Under the pieces are notes generated by a model that was not told where the DNA came from, made no database searches, and saw nothing but the letters and a program-made list of their open reading frames with translations. DNA of 64,000 nt, from contig NZ_AP025017.1 of assembly GCF_019974135.1 (NCBI RefSeq), forward strand, positions 3,106,964 to 3,170,963, read 5' to 3'. Positions 13,805-21,145 of this stretch are shown here, piece after piece. Each line of letters starts with the position of its first letter. The stretch's first letter is position 1. The position numbers and the translations under genes are program-made. This stretch comes from Actinomyces capricornis. Lineage in GTDB: Bacteria > Actinomycetota > Actinomycetes > Actinomycetales > Actinomycetaceae.

Positions 13805-14337
13805 GATTCGGCTATAGTCTATGATTTTGACTACCGACCCGTATCTTGATCCTGCTACTGGCGTGATGTGCAACCAGCTTGGCATCACCGATGCCACCAT
13901 ACTCGCCCAGATGGAAGAACTGACTGTCAGCGTTGCAGCGGCTGAGATTCTCAACTCCTTCCAACCCGCTCGCTGGGATGCCGCACTCCTGCAGCACTTA
14001 CACCGCGAGTAGTTCGGCCAACTCTATACTTGGGCTGGTCAGTACCACATCGTGGAGATCAGCAAGGGCACTTCACGCTTCGCTATAGCTCAGTACATCT
14101 CATCGCAGGTAGAAGCTGTCTTCGCCGACCTGGAACGGGAGCGTCAGGGCTGGAACCCCGGCGACCCTGCTGTGCTCGACCGCTTGGCGCACTACTACTC
14201 CGAGCTCAACGCCATCCATCCTTTCCGCGAGGGCAACGGCCGCACCATCCGCTTGCTGCTCAGTTTGTTATCCAACCGTTACGGCTGTGGCTCGATTGGA
14301 GCGCCATAACCGCCGAAGAGAACACCCGAGCGAGTAC

Positions 14338-14343: not shown

Positions 14344-15413
14344 TGTTCTTCCCATGGAGGTTGTGTGCGGCGTGGTGTGAGAGGGTAGGCGAGGACCTCC
14401 GGTATCGATGTGGGTTACCACGCTCACTCGATCCACGGAGGTCCTCGTGTCATATGTTACTCATGCTCGTGCTGCTCTGAGTGTTCAAGGGCGGCTCAAG
14501 ATCGCCAGGCTGGTTATCGACCAGGGGTGGGCCCAGGCCCGTGTCGCCCAGCGGTTCGATGTCAGTCGGGGCACGGTGTCCAAATGGGTGGCCCGCTACC
14601 GCACCGGTGGCCGCGCGGCGATGCAGGACCGCTCCAGCCGCCCGATCAGCTCACCGCGGCGCACTGCCCGGCGCACCGAGAGGCGCATCATCGCCCTGCG
14701 CACTACTCGCCGCTGGGGCGCCCACCGGATCGCCTACCACCTCCATCTTCCCCAGTCCACGGTCTCCAAAGTGCTGCACCGCTACCGGGCACCACTGCTG
14801 GGACACATCGACAAGACCACCGGTGCGCGCCTGCGCAGGCCCCGGCCCGTGCGCTACGAGCGCCGCGCCCCGGGCGAACTGGTGCACGTCGATGTCAAGA
14901 AGCTCGGCCGGATCCCCGATGGCGGCGGCTGGCGCACCCTGGAACGCTCCGCAGGCGCCCACCGCTCATCGATGGGGTACTCATACCTGCATTCAGCCAT
15001 CGATGACTACTCCCGCCTGGTCTACTCCGAGATCCTGGACGATGAGCGCCAGGACACCGCTGCCGGGTTCTGGCACCGGGCCCGGGCGTTCTACGCCTCC
15101 TTGGGGATCACCGTGCAACGAGTGATGACCGACAACGGCTCGTGCTACCGCTCCAAGGCTTTCAACACCGCTTTGGGCAGCAGCGTCAAGCACCAGTACA
15201 CCCGCCCCTACCGGCCCCAGACCAACGGGAAGATCGAGAGGTTCCACCGCACCCTGGTCGAAGAATGGGCCTACGCCCGCCACTACGACTCCGACCAGGA
15301 ACGCGCCCAGGCCTACCCCCACTGGCTCCACCACTACAATCACCACCGACCCCACACCAGCATCGGAGGCAAACCACCCATCGACCGCGCCCACAACCTC
15401 CATGGGAAGAACA
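14344..15413 (+). mobile_element. IS481-family insertion sequence, complete
   Basis: The element is 1,070 bp with perfect 22-bp terminal inverted repeats at 14344-14365 and 15392-15413. The left end opens TGTTCTTCCC and the right end closes GGGAAGAACA. Its 6-bp target duplication (ACTAGC) is intact, so insertion is probably recent. It carries one transposase gene. It sits inside the Fic toxin gene. Confidence 0.93.
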
Positions 15414-15418
15414 ACTAG
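14447..15418 (+). CDS. IS481-family transposase
   Basis: The GTG at 14447 follows GGAGGTCCTC, a good Shine-Dalgarno, and gives 323 residues. The N-terminal part holds two helix-turn-helix regions (FDVSRGTVSKWVARYRTGGR and RIAYHLHLPQSTVSKVLHRY). The integrase-type catalytic core has the three acids in ELVHVDVKKLG, RVMTDNGSCYRS and the RPYRPQTNGKIERFHRTL block. The C-terminus ends HNLHGKNN inside the right terminal repeat. The TAG stop at 15416-15418 is not part of the element: it is supplied by the CTAG in the duplicated target, a neat consequence of the insertion site choice. The gene appears intact. Confidence 0.93.
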   Translation: MSYVTHARAALSVQGRLKIARLVIDQGWAQARVAQRFDVSRGTVSKWVARYRTGGRAAMQDRSSRPISSPRRTARRTERRIIALRTTRRWGAHRIAYHLHLPQSTVSKVLHRYRAPLLGHIDKTTGARLRRPRPVRYERRAPGELVHVDVKKLGRIPDGGGWRTLERSAGAHRSSMGYSYLHSAIDDYSRLVYSEILDDERQDTAAGFWHRARAFYASLGITVQRVMTDNGSCYRSKAFNTALGSSVKHQYTRPYRPQTNGKIERFHRTLVEEWAYARHYDSDQERAQAYPHWLHHYNHHRPHTSIGGKPPIDRAHNLHGKNN

Positions 15419-16609: not shown

Positions 16610-16639
16610 TTGTAGCGAGCTACAATCAAGAGGTATACT
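16610..16639 (+). promoter_or_regulatory. Promoter of the RhuM operon with an embedded palindrome
   Basis: TTGTAG (16610-16615) and TATACT (16634-16639) are 18 bp apart. The start codon at 16646 follows six bases after the -10 box without a Shine-Dalgarno. Between the two boxes, overlapping the -35, lies the perfect inverted repeat TGTAGC-GA-GCTACA (16611-16624), well placed for a repressor. Confidence 0.6.
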
Positions 16640-16645
16640 ATTTGT

Positions 16646-17704
16646 ATGCATGACGCACCCGACTCAGAGCCATCTCGTAAACTCATCCGCAACTCCACGG
16701 CCGAGTTCCTGATCTTCACCGCACAGGACGGCGGGAGCAGTATTGAGGCTCGCTACGAGGATGAGACGGTCTGGCTGACTCAGAAGTTGATGGCGGAGCT
16801 GTTCGGGGTGGATGTGCGCACTATCAGTGAGCACCTTGGCAACGTCTTCAAGTCAGGAGAGCTGGGACGTGACGCAGTTATCCGGAAGTTCCGGATAACT
16901 GCCACCGACGGCAAGAGTTACGCCACTCAGCACTACAACCTCGACGCCATTATCTCGGTGGGCTATCGGGTCAACTCGGTGCGTGCCACTCAGTTCCGCC
17001 AGTGGGCTACCCGGGTACTGCGAGACTTCGCCATCCGGGGCTACGCCATCGACCGAGAGCGAATGGAGAACGGGACCTTCCTGGGACAGGACTACTTCGA
17101 GCGACTACTGGAGGAGATCCGGGAGATCCGCCTGTCCGAGCGCCGCTTCTACCAGAAAGTCACTGACATCTACGCCACCAGTGTGGACTACAACAAGGAT
17201 GCTCCGACCACCAAGCGCTTCTTCGCCACCGTACAGAACAAGCTCCATTATGCCGTCCATGGACAGACTGCCGCTGAACTCATCAAGTCTCGAGCTGATG
17301 CTGCCCGGCCTCACATGGGCTTGACCACCTGGGCCAGCAGCCCCGACGGCAAGATCCTGCCCAGCGACGTCACCATCGGCAAGAACTATCTCACCCGCGA
17401 GGAGTTGGCGGACCTGGGGCGCCTGGTCAACGCCTTCCTCGACCTGGCCGAATCCCGCGCCCGTCGCCACATTCCCATGACAATGGAGGATTGGGCCAAG
17501 CGTTTAGATACCTTCCTCAATCTCGACGACCGCCAGATCCTCGAAGGTGCCGGCCGCATCTCCAAGACCCAAGCAGACGACCACGCCCTGAGCGAGTTCG
17601 AGAAGTTCAGGGTGGTGCAGGACCGCAAGTATGTGAGTGATTTTGATCGACTAGAAGATGCTAGCATTGAAAGGAGGGTAGGCAATGACGAAGAAAACGA
17701 TTAA
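16646..17704 (+). CDS. rhuM: RhuM-family protein
   Basis: The 352-residue protein matches the RhuM family in length and motifs. The N-terminal block reads EDETVWLTQKLMAELFGVDV, then RTISEHLGNVFKSGEL as a helix-turn-helix-like segment, followed by YNLDAIISVGYRVNSVRATQ and FRQWATRVLRDFAIRGYAID. A long helical C-terminal half contains FFATVQNKLHYAVHGQTAAE and KNYLTREELADLGRLVNAFL. RhuM was named from Salmonella pathogenicity island 3; related genes are common on genomic islands near restriction and toxin loci, and their activity is unresolved. Here the 3' end overlaps the next gene by 20 bp, so the two are coupled. The message is probably leaderless. Confidence 0.88.
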   Translation: MHDAPDSEPSRKLIRNSTAEFLIFTAQDGGSSIEARYEDETVWLTQKLMAELFGVDVRTISEHLGNVFKSGELGRDAVIRKFRITATDGKSYATQHYNLDAIISVGYRVNSVRATQFRQWATRVLRDFAIRGYAIDRERMENGTFLGQDYFERLLEEIREIRLSERRFYQKVTDIYATSVDYNKDAPTTKRFFATVQNKLHYAVHGQTAAELIKSRADAARPHMGLTTWASSPDGKILPSDVTIGKNYLTREELADLGRLVNAFLDLAESRARRHIPMTMEDWAKRLDTFLNLDDRQILEGAGRISKTQADDHALSEFEKFRVVQDRKYVSDFDRLEDASIERRVGNDEEND

Positions 17705-18464
17705 AGACAATAAGCCTAACCTGATCAAAGTCGTCTACTTCGACGAGGAGTCAGCCTCAGATTATCTGGATATGTCCGCCGGCGGTAAAGCCGCCTCCAC
17801 GAGCGAAGATGTAAAAGAGCGGACCAATGAGGCGCATGGTAAAGTCGAAGCTGGCCTCATCACGAAGCTCAGTTGGTTGCCGTTTTTTGGCGCGTCAGGC
17901 GAACTGAACGCAGGTGCCGGAGTGGCCGCAGCTGGCAAGAGCATCTTGAGCAAGACGCTGTCGAACACGATCCTGACAGACTACCTCGTCAAGTCGGATA
18001 GCGACCCTCGAGTGGTCCAGTTACAAGATCTTCGCGTGACCGCGCCTGAGGGGTCTATGGCGTACATGAAGATGTTCACACCTTACATGGTGCTGCTCAA
18101 GCTGGACGATGTGCCTTTCGACTTGGCGCGCATGGATGAAGTGCTTGCGAACGCGAAAGGCTATTACGAGTTACTCGGTGAAGATGATAACGGTTCCAAG
18201 TGTGTACTGCGATTCAACCTCAAGGCGTTCCGGAACAACTACGGGCTCACAGATCTCGGACGCATGCGCCTGGTCTTCCACGGCGTACTCGTCGGACAGA
18301 CATCCGAGCAAGCACTTACTATGGAGGCCGAGATGTCGGGCAATACGGACAGTACTACTGTGACAGCCGTTGAACTCGTCGATGGCATAGACGTACAGAA
18401 TGATGACCTCCTAGATGTGTATGACATCATCCTTGCAGGAGTTGAGGTCGAGCATGCCAAGTGA
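17685..18464 (+). CDS. DUF6414-like protein coupled to RhuM and an AAA+ ATPase
   Basis: The 259-residue protein starts MTKKTIKDNKPNLIKVVYFD. It continues with EESASDYLDMSAGGKAAS, the YFDE-x-SASDYL opening that I associate with DUF6414. A glycine/alanine-rich amphipathic stretch (ASGELNAGAGVAAAGKSILS) follows at about residues 70-90, then a beta-rich body to the C-terminus. AAAGGAGG-like bases precede its ATG inside the end of rhuM. It overlaps both neighbours (20 bp upstream, 11 bp downstream), so all three are translated from one message. DUF6414 has no established role that I know; coupling to an ATPase suggests a partner or substrate adaptor. Confidence 0.65.
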   Translation: MTKKTIKDNKPNLIKVVYFDEESASDYLDMSAGGKAASTSEDVKERTNEAHGKVEAGLITKLSWLPFFGASGELNAGAGVAAAGKSILSKTLSNTILTDYLVKSDSDPRVVQLQDLRVTAPEGSMAYMKMFTPYMVLLKLDDVPFDLARMDEVLANAKGYYELLGEDDNGSKCVLRFNLKAFRNNYGLTDLGRMRLVFHGVLVGQTSEQALTMEAEMSGNTDSTTVTAVELVDGIDVQNDDLLDVYDIILAGVEVEHAK

Positions 18465-19614
18465 TACGACAGTCACCATCTACTACGGCCCGCTGTCGTG
18501 GTTCAATGAACAGCTGGGAGAAAAGGAGTACACGTCCTTTCTTGACATTGTCTATGAGCACGACGAGGCCAAGCGGCGCCATACCCTTGTTATTGAAGGT
18601 CAGGAGGCGCCACCCAAGGAATCTGCACCGAGACCGAATTGTGTAGCGGCGGATTCGAGCGACTACGCTAGTTTAAGCGAACACGCTATCACCAACTTTA
18701 TCGGTCTTATGCGATCTATCAACCCCAAGTATCTTCATCTGCACAACCCACCTGCCCACGTTCACTCACAACTTGAGCGAGCGTTCACAACTAAGGTGAA
18801 GCGCTATGAATATCCGACAGTGACGCGAGATATGCTCGTACGCTTCCGCGACGGATTCGCCGGACATCTTGTAGGTCAAGCGACTGTTATGGAGGCACTA
18901 CTTGCGGCGCTGTATCCACTGACCACGGCACGGCAGACGAAGCCAGTCGTTTTAATGTTCTACGGCCCGTCCGGTGTCGGTAAGACTGAAACCGCACAGT
19001 TCATCAACGGTTTACTCGGGGGGAAGTTGCTGCGCAAACAGTTCTCTATGTTCCACAATGACAAGTTCGCATCGTATTTATTTGGCGGAGCGCACCTCGA
19101 GGCCTCCTTCGCACGCGACTTACTCGATCGTGAGTCCGGTGTCATCCTTATCGATGAGTTCGACAAAGCAAACTCGGTCTTCCACAGCGCCTTCTACCAG
19201 TTATTCGACAGTGGCGTGTTCGAGGACAAGAACTACAGCGTCAAACTCGGCCCATCCTTGATCATTTGCACCTCAAACTACGCCACCGAAGACGAAATCC
19301 GCAAGACTCTCGGCGACGCTCTCTATTCACGATTTGACTCCTTGATTCACTTCAAGCCACTCTCCAAGAATGAGATCTATCAGGTTATCGACAGGATTGT
19401 TGATAACCGCTTCTCGAAGCTCAGACTTGACGAAAAAGCGCGACTGGACCCCAGTGTTATCAAGACTATGCTGTATCCGCTAGCCAACAAGGGAGGCAAT
19501 GTGCGCAAGCTCGGTAAATTAGCCGACGAGGTTATTTCGCTGGTGTTGGTGCGCGACATACTGAAAAACACTAGCCAGACCGGTAGCGGAACCAATGCGG
19601 AGGATGGGTCATAA
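18454..19614 (+). CDS. Clp/HSP100-like single-ring AAA+ ATPase
   Basis: From ATG 18454 the product is 386 residues. The N-terminal 120 residues are unlike Clp N-domains and contain a YYGPLSWFNEQLGEKEYTSF opening and FIGLMRSINPKYLHLHNPP. The AAA+ core follows: Walker A GPSGVGKTET at about 171, Walker B GVILIDEFDKAN at about 229, sensor 1 IICTSNYA, and a C-terminal small domain with KGGNVRKLGKLADEVI. The core resembles the second (AAA_2) module of ClpA/ClpB, but only one AAA module is present and no ClpP-binding loop is obvious. An upstream in-frame start at 18415 lies deep in the previous gene and was rejected. The architecture suggests a remodelling motor specialised for its operon partners. 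Confidence 0.8.
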   Translation: MPSDTTVTIYYGPLSWFNEQLGEKEYTSFLDIVYEHDEAKRRHTLVIEGQEAPPKESAPRPNCVAADSSDYASLSEHAITNFIGLMRSINPKYLHLHNPPAHVHSQLERAFTTKVKRYEYPTVTRDMLVRFRDGFAGHLVGQATVMEALLAALYPLTTARQTKPVVLMFYGPSGVGKTETAQFINGLLGGKLLRKQFSMFHNDKFASYLFGGAHLEASFARDLLDRESGVILIDEFDKANSVFHSAFYQLFDSGVFEDKNYSVKLGPSLIICTSNYATEDEIRKTLGDALYSRFDSLIHFKPLSKNEIYQVIDRIVDNRFSKLRLDEKARLDPSVIKTMLYPLANKGGNVRKLGKLADEVISLVLVRDILKNTSQTGSGTNAEDGS

Positions 19615-19829: not shown

Positions 19830-20378
19830 TCAACGTTGAATTTGCGATATCACATCGCTCAATGAACTTGGCGCAAAGACACCTCTAAGAACAATCGCAT
19901 AAAGTCCGATAATCTCAACGACGGTCGAAGCGAACCATCCTAGAATCACTTTATCCGACGGCCACATTCCATGAACTGCTTGAATGACTGCTAACAGCAT
20001 AAACGAACCATTAACGACCCATACTTGAATTTTTGTCAGCCGTATAATCTCTGATGCTAACTTGTTCCTCATCTCAAGGCCAGTTCTAAGATCTTCGATG
20101 AAGGCATTATTCAGGGCGGCTTTTCTTTTAGACTCTTCCAAGCGCAGAATTTTTTTGAACGACAGAACTGAATCAGACTTAAAAGTGTCATCAGTGTTCT
20201 TTAATCGAAATGAGCGCTTTGGTGAGCCTATATCACTGTCGCTAACTTTGGATCCACCAGGTAGCGGAGCGATTGGCTTGCTGGCAGTATCCAATAAAGG
20301 TATGTAACTCGCGATTTGTTGAATCGATAATTCCGAATTATTTGATTGAAACTGGCTGTCAGACACAAATGACTCCAA
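19830..20378 (-). CDS. Two-helix membrane protein paired with an ImmA-type peptidase
   Basis: The 182-residue protein has a disordered, Ser/Pro-rich N-terminus (MESFVSDSQFQSNNSELSIQ onward), a basic helical middle (SFKKILRLEESKRKAALNNA) and two C-terminal transmembrane helices, VVNGSFMLLAVIQAVHGMW and VILGWFASTVVEIIGLYAIV. It begins 26 bp after the stop of the metallopeptidase gene, so the two are co-transcribed. The soluble tail plus short membrane hairpin is a layout seen in membrane-disrupting effectors. Cleavage of such a tail by the adjacent protease would be a plausible switch, but this is inference. No named family was recognised. Confidence 0.6.
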   Translation of the reverse strand: MESFVSDSQFQSNNSELSIQQIASYIPLLDTASKPIAPLPGGSKVSDSDIGSPKRSFRLKNTDDTFKSDSVLSFKKILRLEESKRKAALNNAFIEDLRTGLEMRNKLASEIIRLTKIQVWVVNGSFMLLAVIQAVHGMWPSDKVILGWFASTVVEIIGLYAIVLRGVFAPSSLSDVISQIQR

Positions 20379-20404
20379 ACCTCACTTAAAGCATCATTGT
20401 TTCT

Positions 20405-21145
20405 CTATAAAATGATAGAGAGTTCATGCAAGCGATTCTGCATCGTGACTTCCGACACTCCGAAAGCATGCGCTACAAGTTCAACGGGCATTCCGAGCCC
20501 CGCAAATTCTTCAACTTCTGCCCGGGGCATCAGTAACGAATGGGCAAAACGGTCTGCAAATAATTCAGACTGATTCTGATCAGGTAAACCTGAAGGAGTA
20601 GGCTTACGACCTGCGAGGATCAATAGGTCACTTGTCATGGTTTCATCAGAAAACCCAAATGGCCCTCTAATTGGTTCATCGAGACTTTCGATCTTCTCAA
20701 TATAGTGACCAATTTCGTGGGCAATCGTGAACCGCTTGCGTGGGGTACTTGCACCTTCGTCTACAAATATCGATGGCATCGACTGATCGGCGGTCTTTAA
20801 AATTAGACCAGCCAGACGCCCTGGAATTTGCGCAAAATACACGTCCATGCCCATCGACACAGCGATAGCGTTCGGGTCTACCGGATACTCGCCGTCCCAA
20901 TGCCTTTCTAGTACTGCATCAGCCCAGCACTCTGCTCGACGCAAATCGACAGATTCACGCGTTCCGTCCATGGTGTCGGAGCTGTTTGCAGCCATCTGGA
21001 GCATCCGCCGCCTCTCTGTGTCCTCGTCCTCGTTCTGAAGTTCATCAACCCGGGCAAACTTATATCCGAGCCTACCAGCATACGATCCCAGATATCGCTT
21101 CAACCGTGATGCCGGGCCGCACTCACCATCATAACGTTCTCGCAT
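20405..21145 (-). CDS. ImmA/IrrE-family metallopeptidase
   Basis: The 246-residue protein contains the zinc motif HEIGH at residues 143-147 within FTIAHEIGHYIE, and the downstream ELFADRFAHSLLMP block that supplies the third ligand and is diagnostic of the ImmA/IrrE (M78) family. The C-terminal helix-turn-helix-like VELVAHAFGVSEVTMQNRL is also typical. In ICEBs1 and in Deinococcus such enzymes cleave a partner repressor. No XRE repressor is adjacent here; the partner gene encodes a membrane protein. The start at 21145 follows a near-consensus promoter with almost no leader. A later ATG (MLQMAAN) would give a shorter form beginning nearer the domain. Confidence 0.88.
   Translation of the reverse strand: MRERYDGECGPASRLKRYLGSYAGRLGYKFARVDELQNEDEDTERRRMLQMAANSSDTMDGTRESVDLRRAECWADAVLERHWDGEYPVDPNAIAVSMGMDVYFAQIPGRLAGLILKTADQSMPSIFVDEGASTPRKRFTIAHEIGHYIEKIESLDEPIRGPFGFSDETMTSDLLILAGRKPTPSGLPDQNQSELFADRFAHSLLMPRAEVEEFAGLGMPVELVAHAFGVSEVTMQNRLHELSIIL

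Follow-up and report, generated by a model that had tools for sequence, protein, structure and literature searches.

A RhuM gene lies directly upstream of, and overlaps, a Dodola operon

Within a 64,000-nucleotide stretch of an Actinomyces capricornis contig (NZ_AP025017.1; the whole stretch is referred to here as the window), we analyzed three plus-strand genes at 16646-19614: a RhuM gene followed by dolA and dolB, the two genes of the Dodola system. The features of the locus are listed below, with lengths in amino acids (aa) or nucleotides (nt).

16610-16625, plus strand: perfect palindrome TTGTAGCGAGCTACAA, 5' of the -10 element; possible operator
16634-16639, plus strand: TATACT, likely -10 element, 6 nt 5' of the RhuM ATG (direct reading)
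16646-17704, plus strand: rhuM, 352 aa; helix-turn-helix (HTH)-like N-terminal region at about residues 19-66, Virulence_RhuM domain at residues 77-328
17672-17677, plus strand: AGGAGG, Shine-Dalgarno-like, serving dolA from within the 3' end of rhuM (direct reading)
17685-18464, plus strand: dolA (DUF6414), first Dodola gene, 259 aa; PADLOC DolA, PF19952
18454-19614, plus strand: dolB, 386 aa; single-module AAA+ ATPase of the Clp/HSP100 type; N-terminal domain of its own; PADLOC DolB

The open reading frame (ORF) coordinates agree with the initial annotation, which had reported overlaps of 20 bp (rhuM/dolA) and 11 bp (dolA/dolB), and place the genes in three different plus-strand frames. An earlier dolB start is mechanically possible at 18415; the first methionine, at 18454, is invariant among 24 aligned sequences. 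The family assignments made there (RhuM, DUF6414 and Clp-like AAA+) were likewise borne out by profile searches. Gene 1 matched PF13310 (RhuM) at 1.5e-109 and 365.6 bits, past the Pfam cut-off of 33.7, and the PADLOC single-gene candidate PDC-S05 at 1.3e-155; its match to HTH_Crp_2 (1.4e-05, 25.4 bits) fell below the cut-off of 27. Gene 2 matched PADLOC DolA at 1.2e-75 over residues 11-254 and DUF6414 (PF19952) at 4.5e-28, while gene 3 matched PADLOC DolB at 3.9e-137 over residues 6-372 and Pfam AAA_2 at 4.6e-13. A dolA gene is thus present with dolB directly next to it, overlapping by 11 bp, and on these PADLOC matches genes 2 and 3 are Dodola. Since DolA and DolB are already PADLOC models, we rejected the earlier proposal of a candidate undescribed three-gene system.

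Dodola is described, in PMC11514479 and PMC12322248, as an anti-phage system of two genes that acts against Bacillus phage SPP1 and streptococcal/dairy phages, and a 2025 paper gives its mechanism as unknown. One passage on Dodola assigns the ClpB domain to DolB and places a Clp structural match under DolA; the two names may have been exchanged there. The window locus resembles Dodola in its two protein families, its dolA-dolB order and its close coupling, but differs in carrying a RhuM gene 5' of dolA that overlaps it by 20 bp, and its DolB is 32-36% identical to the five aligned Bacillota members. Its RhuM resembles PDC-S05 in being full-length with an N-terminal HTH-like region, but it sits in a Dodola operon rather than alone or inside a restriction-modification (R-M) operon. 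Relative to the open PMC papers searched, the locus is, as judged from its sequence, an already known system, newly arranged.

The initial annotation had also given the operon its own promoter. A consensus scan returned no plus-strand promoter, missing the TATACT at 16634-16639 as well, but that element has a counterpart before the other four RhuM genes: of the full-length RhuM genes of the genus, five were inspected, the window's included, and each has TATACT or TATAAT 6-7 nt upstream of its start. A spacing of only 6 nt to the RhuM ATG suggests a leaderless operon message. The palindrome TTGTAGCGAGCTACAA has a single match in the window at two or fewer mismatches (chance expectation, 0.05) and was not seen before the other four full-length RhuM genes; because of this absence, we rejected it as an operator for RhuM autoregulation.

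The three genes recur as one block in a second Actinomyces species

Window positions 16626-19596 align with another Actinomyces locus (L060) over 2993 bp at 82.9% DNA identity, and across the rest of the 16 kb compared, only two stretches, of 192 bp and 108 bp, match. As the block recurs while its flanks share only these short stretches with the window, its presence in a second Actinomyces is, on this DNA comparison, more than chance. The rhuM-dolA overlap is exactly 20 bp in both species. Between the window and Actinomyces OT448 (L033), the synonymous divergence (dS) estimated by NG86 was 0.72, 0.75 and 0.68 for RhuM, DolA and DolB, and the ratio of nonsynonymous to synonymous divergence (dN/dS) was 0.141, 0.114 and 0.142, indicating purifying selection on all three genes, as did YN00. 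The DolBs linked to RhuM form one clade (support, 94/96). The RhuMs beside DolAB (known for the window and L033, from Actinomyces OT448, and inferred for the metagenomic sequence P0124) fall within one 6-row clade with a Shimodaira-Hasegawa-like approximate likelihood ratio test (SH-aLRT) support of 100, in which gene surroundings were seen or inferred for three rows only. The earlier view of one coupled unit is upheld, and this unit is probably anti-phage. We read the pattern as a putative single association event followed by joint inheritance, with RhuM lost in one lineage.

Two observations weigh against a purely joint history. YN00 estimated a higher dS for rhuM than for its partners (1.35, against 0.58 for dolA and 0.60 for dolB), and in DNA the L033 rhuM is nearer to the rhuM of L057, a locus without Dodola (NG86 dS, 0.36), than to that of the window (0.72). 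Perhaps there was also some recombination of RhuM.

DolA and DolB form the conserved core, and RhuM is an occasional addition

We collected 19 related DolB loci in a single scan of genome contigs; with the window, this made a set of 20. As the scan patterns were built from the window DolB, the set leans toward close relatives, and its members are related, not independent. A DolA sequence lies immediately 5' of DolB in all 20 loci (19/19 relatives plus the window), with exceptions only in its quality (an in-frame stop in L036 and a partial frame in L038). RhuM is intact in two (the window and L033), survives as a broken remnant in one (L032, A. bowdenii DSM 15435) and was not found in 17 within the DNA examined, which comprises only 5.5 kb for L045 and 3.1 kb for L046. 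The L032 remnant carries an internal deletion, frame changes and a stop, beside open DolA and DolB frames (92% and 89% identical, respectively). A full-length RhuM (P0122) is present in another record of A. bowdenii.

Wider counts gave a similar picture. DolB scored above 450 bits in three of 99 near relatives, the window genome included, whereas the other listed matches scored no more than about 100 bits, as Clp paralogues would be expected to. Among 394 genomes drawn from the class, DolA was present in one, the window's own, and RhuM in five, four of them above the cut-off. Six of 49 genomes of the genus carry RhuM, three beside DolAB (one being the remnant) and three without a DolB above 450 bits. 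The metagenomic DolA P0002 and RhuM P0124 both have a longest contig of 3983 bases, which suggests a further RhuM-DolAB case. Among plasmids, 31 records had DolB-like matches (at least seven inspected) and 17 had DolA (seven inspected), and RhuM was annotated in none of the ten plasmid regions examined (L062-L067 and L109-L112). No dolA was annotated on L063, L066 or L067 (the L066 DolB match being in two pieces), and no named defense gene was closely coupled 5' of dolA in L064, L065 or L109-L112. The RhuM family itself is widespread, with at least 7999 relatives scored. From the counts in relatives, class draws and genus, the RhuM-DolA-DolB trio appears rare and, among the cases seen, confined to Actinomyces.

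The initial annotation had staked its one-system claim on the three families occurring together and on more than one gene being conserved. The outcome was mixed. The first expectation fared poorly, with RhuM at only 3/20 DolB loci, one a remnant, and a matching scarcity in the class draws; the second held, the conserved core being two genes, DolA and DolB, and the trio a single block between two Actinomyces species.

The tight coupling, the shared block and the selection on all three genes would also fit an obligate system of three components, with RhuM as its effector or sensor and with DolAB inactive by itself in this lineage. We regard such a system as improbable: two-gene Dodola protects elsewhere according to passages of PMC11514479 and PMC12322248, RhuM was not found in most loci within the DNA examined, and L032 keeps open DolA and DolB frames beside a broken RhuM.

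A stronger competitor, though one we still consider doubtful, is that RhuM is a passenger, an independent single-gene defense or toxin gene that sits before an ordinary Dodola and shares only its transcription and translation. RhuM alone constitutes PDC-S05, half of the RhuM-bearing genomes of the genus carry it without DolAB, it decayed in L032 while DolAB persisted, and it occurs in other operons, as in L114, where it lies between hsdS and a helicase-type gene; the affinity of the L033 rhuM to that of L057 and the YN00 dS values point the same way. Against a passenger stand the single block, in which each of the three genes is under purifying selection, their similar NG86 divergence, the identical 20-bp overlap in two species and the single clade that takes in the RhuMs whose place beside DolAB is known or inferred.

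On balance, we lean toward a Dodola system that gained RhuM in front of it in a small group of Actinomyces, forming one coupled operon probably driven from the RhuM promoter. The gene identities, the overlaps, the DolA-DolB pairing, the shared trio block and the RhuM-only decay in a third species are the parts of this explanation that are read from sequence. Under this explanation, a RhuM gene would have been acquired 5' of dolA-dolB in a few Actinomyces, and its own promoter would probably drive rhuM-dolA-dolB as a coupled operon. RhuM may then be a DNA-binding accessory, either an effector or a regulator, that broadens or adjusts the response, and it would be dispensable for Dodola itself.

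DolB is a Clp-type ATPase with the ClpP-docking stretch mostly missing

The DolB profile matches the D2 domain of ClpC/ClpA, and each of the 24 aligned DolB rows contains Walker A/B, sensor-1, Arg-finger and sensor-2 motifs when matched with loose patterns. In Clp ATPases, GYVG is the pore loop, and the docking loop of ClpA makes the contact with ClpP. The pattern G[YF]VG occurs in none of the 24 rows, and in an alignment with ClpA, the stretch after sensor 1 that carries the docking loop is mostly missing from DolB, for which reason we rejected DolB as a ClpP partner. An [IVL]G[FL] motif is found at residues 266-305 in three of the 24 rows, positioned after the Arg finger. DolB shares with ClpA, ClpC and ClpB a D2-type AAA+ module with its catalytic residues kept, but differs from them in having a single module and another N-terminal domain and in lacking GYVG and most of the docking-loop stretch. 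With ATPase residues retained and the ClpP-docking and GYVG pore-loop motifs lacking, DolB may form a ring that uses ATP to remodel a target instead of degrading it. DolA would be its adaptor or sensor, perhaps one that binds nucleic acid.

The homology to the D2 domains of ClpC/ClpA also raises the reading that the locus is no defense system, but serves housekeeping or stress as an operon for a Clp-like chaperone. The DolB model does match in all 14 control genomes, presumably through Clp paralogues. We consider such a role highly improbable, as DolA occurs in only one of the 394 class genomes, relatives couple DolAB to R-M, CBASS and Gabija genes, and the NCBIfam scores of DolB lie far under the equivalog cut-offs (ClpA, 51.2 against 993.15 bits; TssH, 51.5 against 884.95; ClpB, 29.8 against 1232.1). 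The setting is also rich in insertion sequences, as the initial annotation had remarked, with Mutator-type, integrase-core (IS481-like) and ISL3 transposases at 1976, 14408, 22949 and 25796 of the window.

No match to the window DolB was found at an E value of 1e-20 or below among 50,697 phage records, and none among viral contigs searched with the single DolB sequence; a search of viral contigs with the DolB alignment returned at least 35 distant Clp-type loci at 22-37% identity. As these searches gave no close match, a phage origin of the window DolB was rejected. A DolA scan of viral contigs found two that carry it. On L107 (6870-12706), a mobile or viral contig with recombinases, DolA and DolB are followed 286 bp on by an OLD-type nuclease and a UvrD-like helicase (Gabija-like by eye). 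On the viral contig L108 (7774-9724), DolA and a DolB-like AAA ORF lie between integrase-like and HNH/terminase-like genes (names assigned by eye), apparently a Dodola carried by a phage genome.

DolAB is coupled to many unrelated defense genes

By raw count, a named gene overlaps the DolA start by 1, 4 or 20 bp in 10/20 loci. This upstream partner is a type III Res in L034, L035, L041, L043 and L048, HsdR in L042 and L044, RhuM in the window and L033 and, in L037, a Cap15/2TM effector (CBASS) that follows a CD-NTase. A Res-type ORF lies 10 bp before DolA in L050, and on the enterococcal plasmid L062 a TIR gene lies 12 bp 5' of dolA. Downstream, a 4-bp overlap follows DolB in 11/20 loci, 10 of them with a named partner (raw count): a PDC-S06/AAA_13 protein, which a weak PADLOC match marks as PrrC-like, in five; GajA then GajB (Gabija) in four; and a Hypoth_ymh protein in L037 only. 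The ORF that overlaps by 4 bp in L036 has a GajA-like start by eye and matched no PADLOC model. Both joins are present in 8/20 loci. The names of several partners come from a blastp cluster: PDC-S06 in L044 and L048, HsdR in L044, and GajB in L039, L043 and L047.

No named coupled upstream gene was seen in L032 (RhuM remnant), L036 (a 122-aa ORF spanning the DolA start), L038, L039 (a 76-aa ORF overlapping by 1 bp), L040, L047 or L049 (a DUF4365 protein 283 bp off and a 126-aa ORF 2 bp off), and L045 and L046 end upstream at a contig edge. In most plasmid regions, too, a named coupled partner is missing from at least one side. On a 23-row DolB tree, partner labels, which we set ourselves, changed at least eight times upstream and at least eight times downstream, with unlabeled rows left out of the counts.

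DNA comparisons between relatives suggested exchange on either side. L041 and L048 share DolAB and the downstream DNA at 93% but not the upstream DNA; L041 and L043 share the upstream DNA and DolAB at 91% but not the downstream DNA; and only DolAB is common to L043/L048 (92%), L039/L041 (87%) and L034/L035 (79%). Among the 15 pairs with DolAB-spanning blocks of at least 79% identity, to which the swap reading is limited, homology ends upstream at the DolA 5' end in 10 (about 140 bp before it for L039-L048) and downstream at the DolB 3' end in 11. For all 167 pairs with a block over DolAB, the upstream boundary stops near the DolA start in 55, begins later in 104 and runs on in 8, and the downstream boundary stops near the DolB end in 42, ends earlier in 110 and runs on in 15. 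The exact break points are set by variation that the opening codons of DolA and the DolB tail show in themselves; exchange is supported instead by the lack of homology beyond the DolAB ends. On this evidence, DolAB looks like a swappable cassette.

A tentative extension is that DolAB serves in Actinobacteria as a portable joint, set stop-to-start between first-line modules (type I/III restriction enzymes, a CBASS effector, RhuM or, 12 bp off on the enterococcal plasmid, TIR) and second-line ones (a PrrC-like ATPase, Gabija or Hypoth_ymh), remodeling or licensing the coupled partner, with the window RhuM being one exchanged partner. The loci are few and related, the DolA and DolB ends are variable, and defense genes cluster anyway, all of which weigh against it; shared residence in defense islands, together with selection for co-expression, would yield much of the same pattern.

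According to a 2024 survey, R-M genes tend to be neighbors of Dodola genes outside defense islands, and a passage of a HEPN survey (PMC3710099) describes RhuM-like genes in R-M operons with PrrC-like proteins, RhuM being placed like Doc in such R-M/PrrC neighborhoods. We also found RhuM inside R-M operons in L114 and L115. The window operon is of the same layered type as those described in that passage but differs in that the neighbors searched include no R-M gene next to the trio, and in that relatives' DolAB lies between an R gene and a PrrC-like gene.

It is mainly this coupling to many unrelated defense genes that makes the trio worth experiment, as it suggests how Dodola may work and that tests should include the Dodola partners, not DolAB alone. 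Control of neighboring nucleases or of CBASS by DolAB, if it exists, would help explain the wiring of layered defense operons, and it would give RhuM, a widespread family of unsettled activity, a directly testable partner. If the locus is merely Dodola plus a neighbor, it is ordinary.

Neighboring genes and related arrangements

The closely packed run in L037 (3614-8417) comprises the CD-NTase, Cap15/2TM effector, DolA, DolB and Hypoth_ymh protein, which puts CBASS and Dodola in a single apparent operon. In the window, the minus strand at 19830-21145 carries an M78 (ImmA/IrrE-like) peptidase gene (PADLOC capP, 1.4e-19) beside a small protein of no assigned family; the pair is convergent with dolB and conserved in A. 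bowdenii. An ImmA/IrrE peptidase gene likewise lies just past dolB on the Leuconostoc plasmids L111 and L112. At window 13821-14309, a Fic/Doc gene is apparently in pieces (the Fic match covers only 14052-14306) and is followed by the IS481-like transposase at 14408-15418; A. bowdenii L032 has an unbroken 236-aa Fic ORF at the matching place.

A 554-556 aa protein without a Pfam match lies directly after RhuM in genome G040 (L059, 5351-8169) and directly before the RhuM remnant of A. bowdenii (L032, 2987-4657), the likeness of the two being judged by eye from their first residues. In two further Actinomyces (L057, 4675-7622; L058, 7168-10182), RhuM follows two alike proteins of about 290-316 aa, which in L057 have no Pfam or PADLOC match, a possible further RhuM operon.

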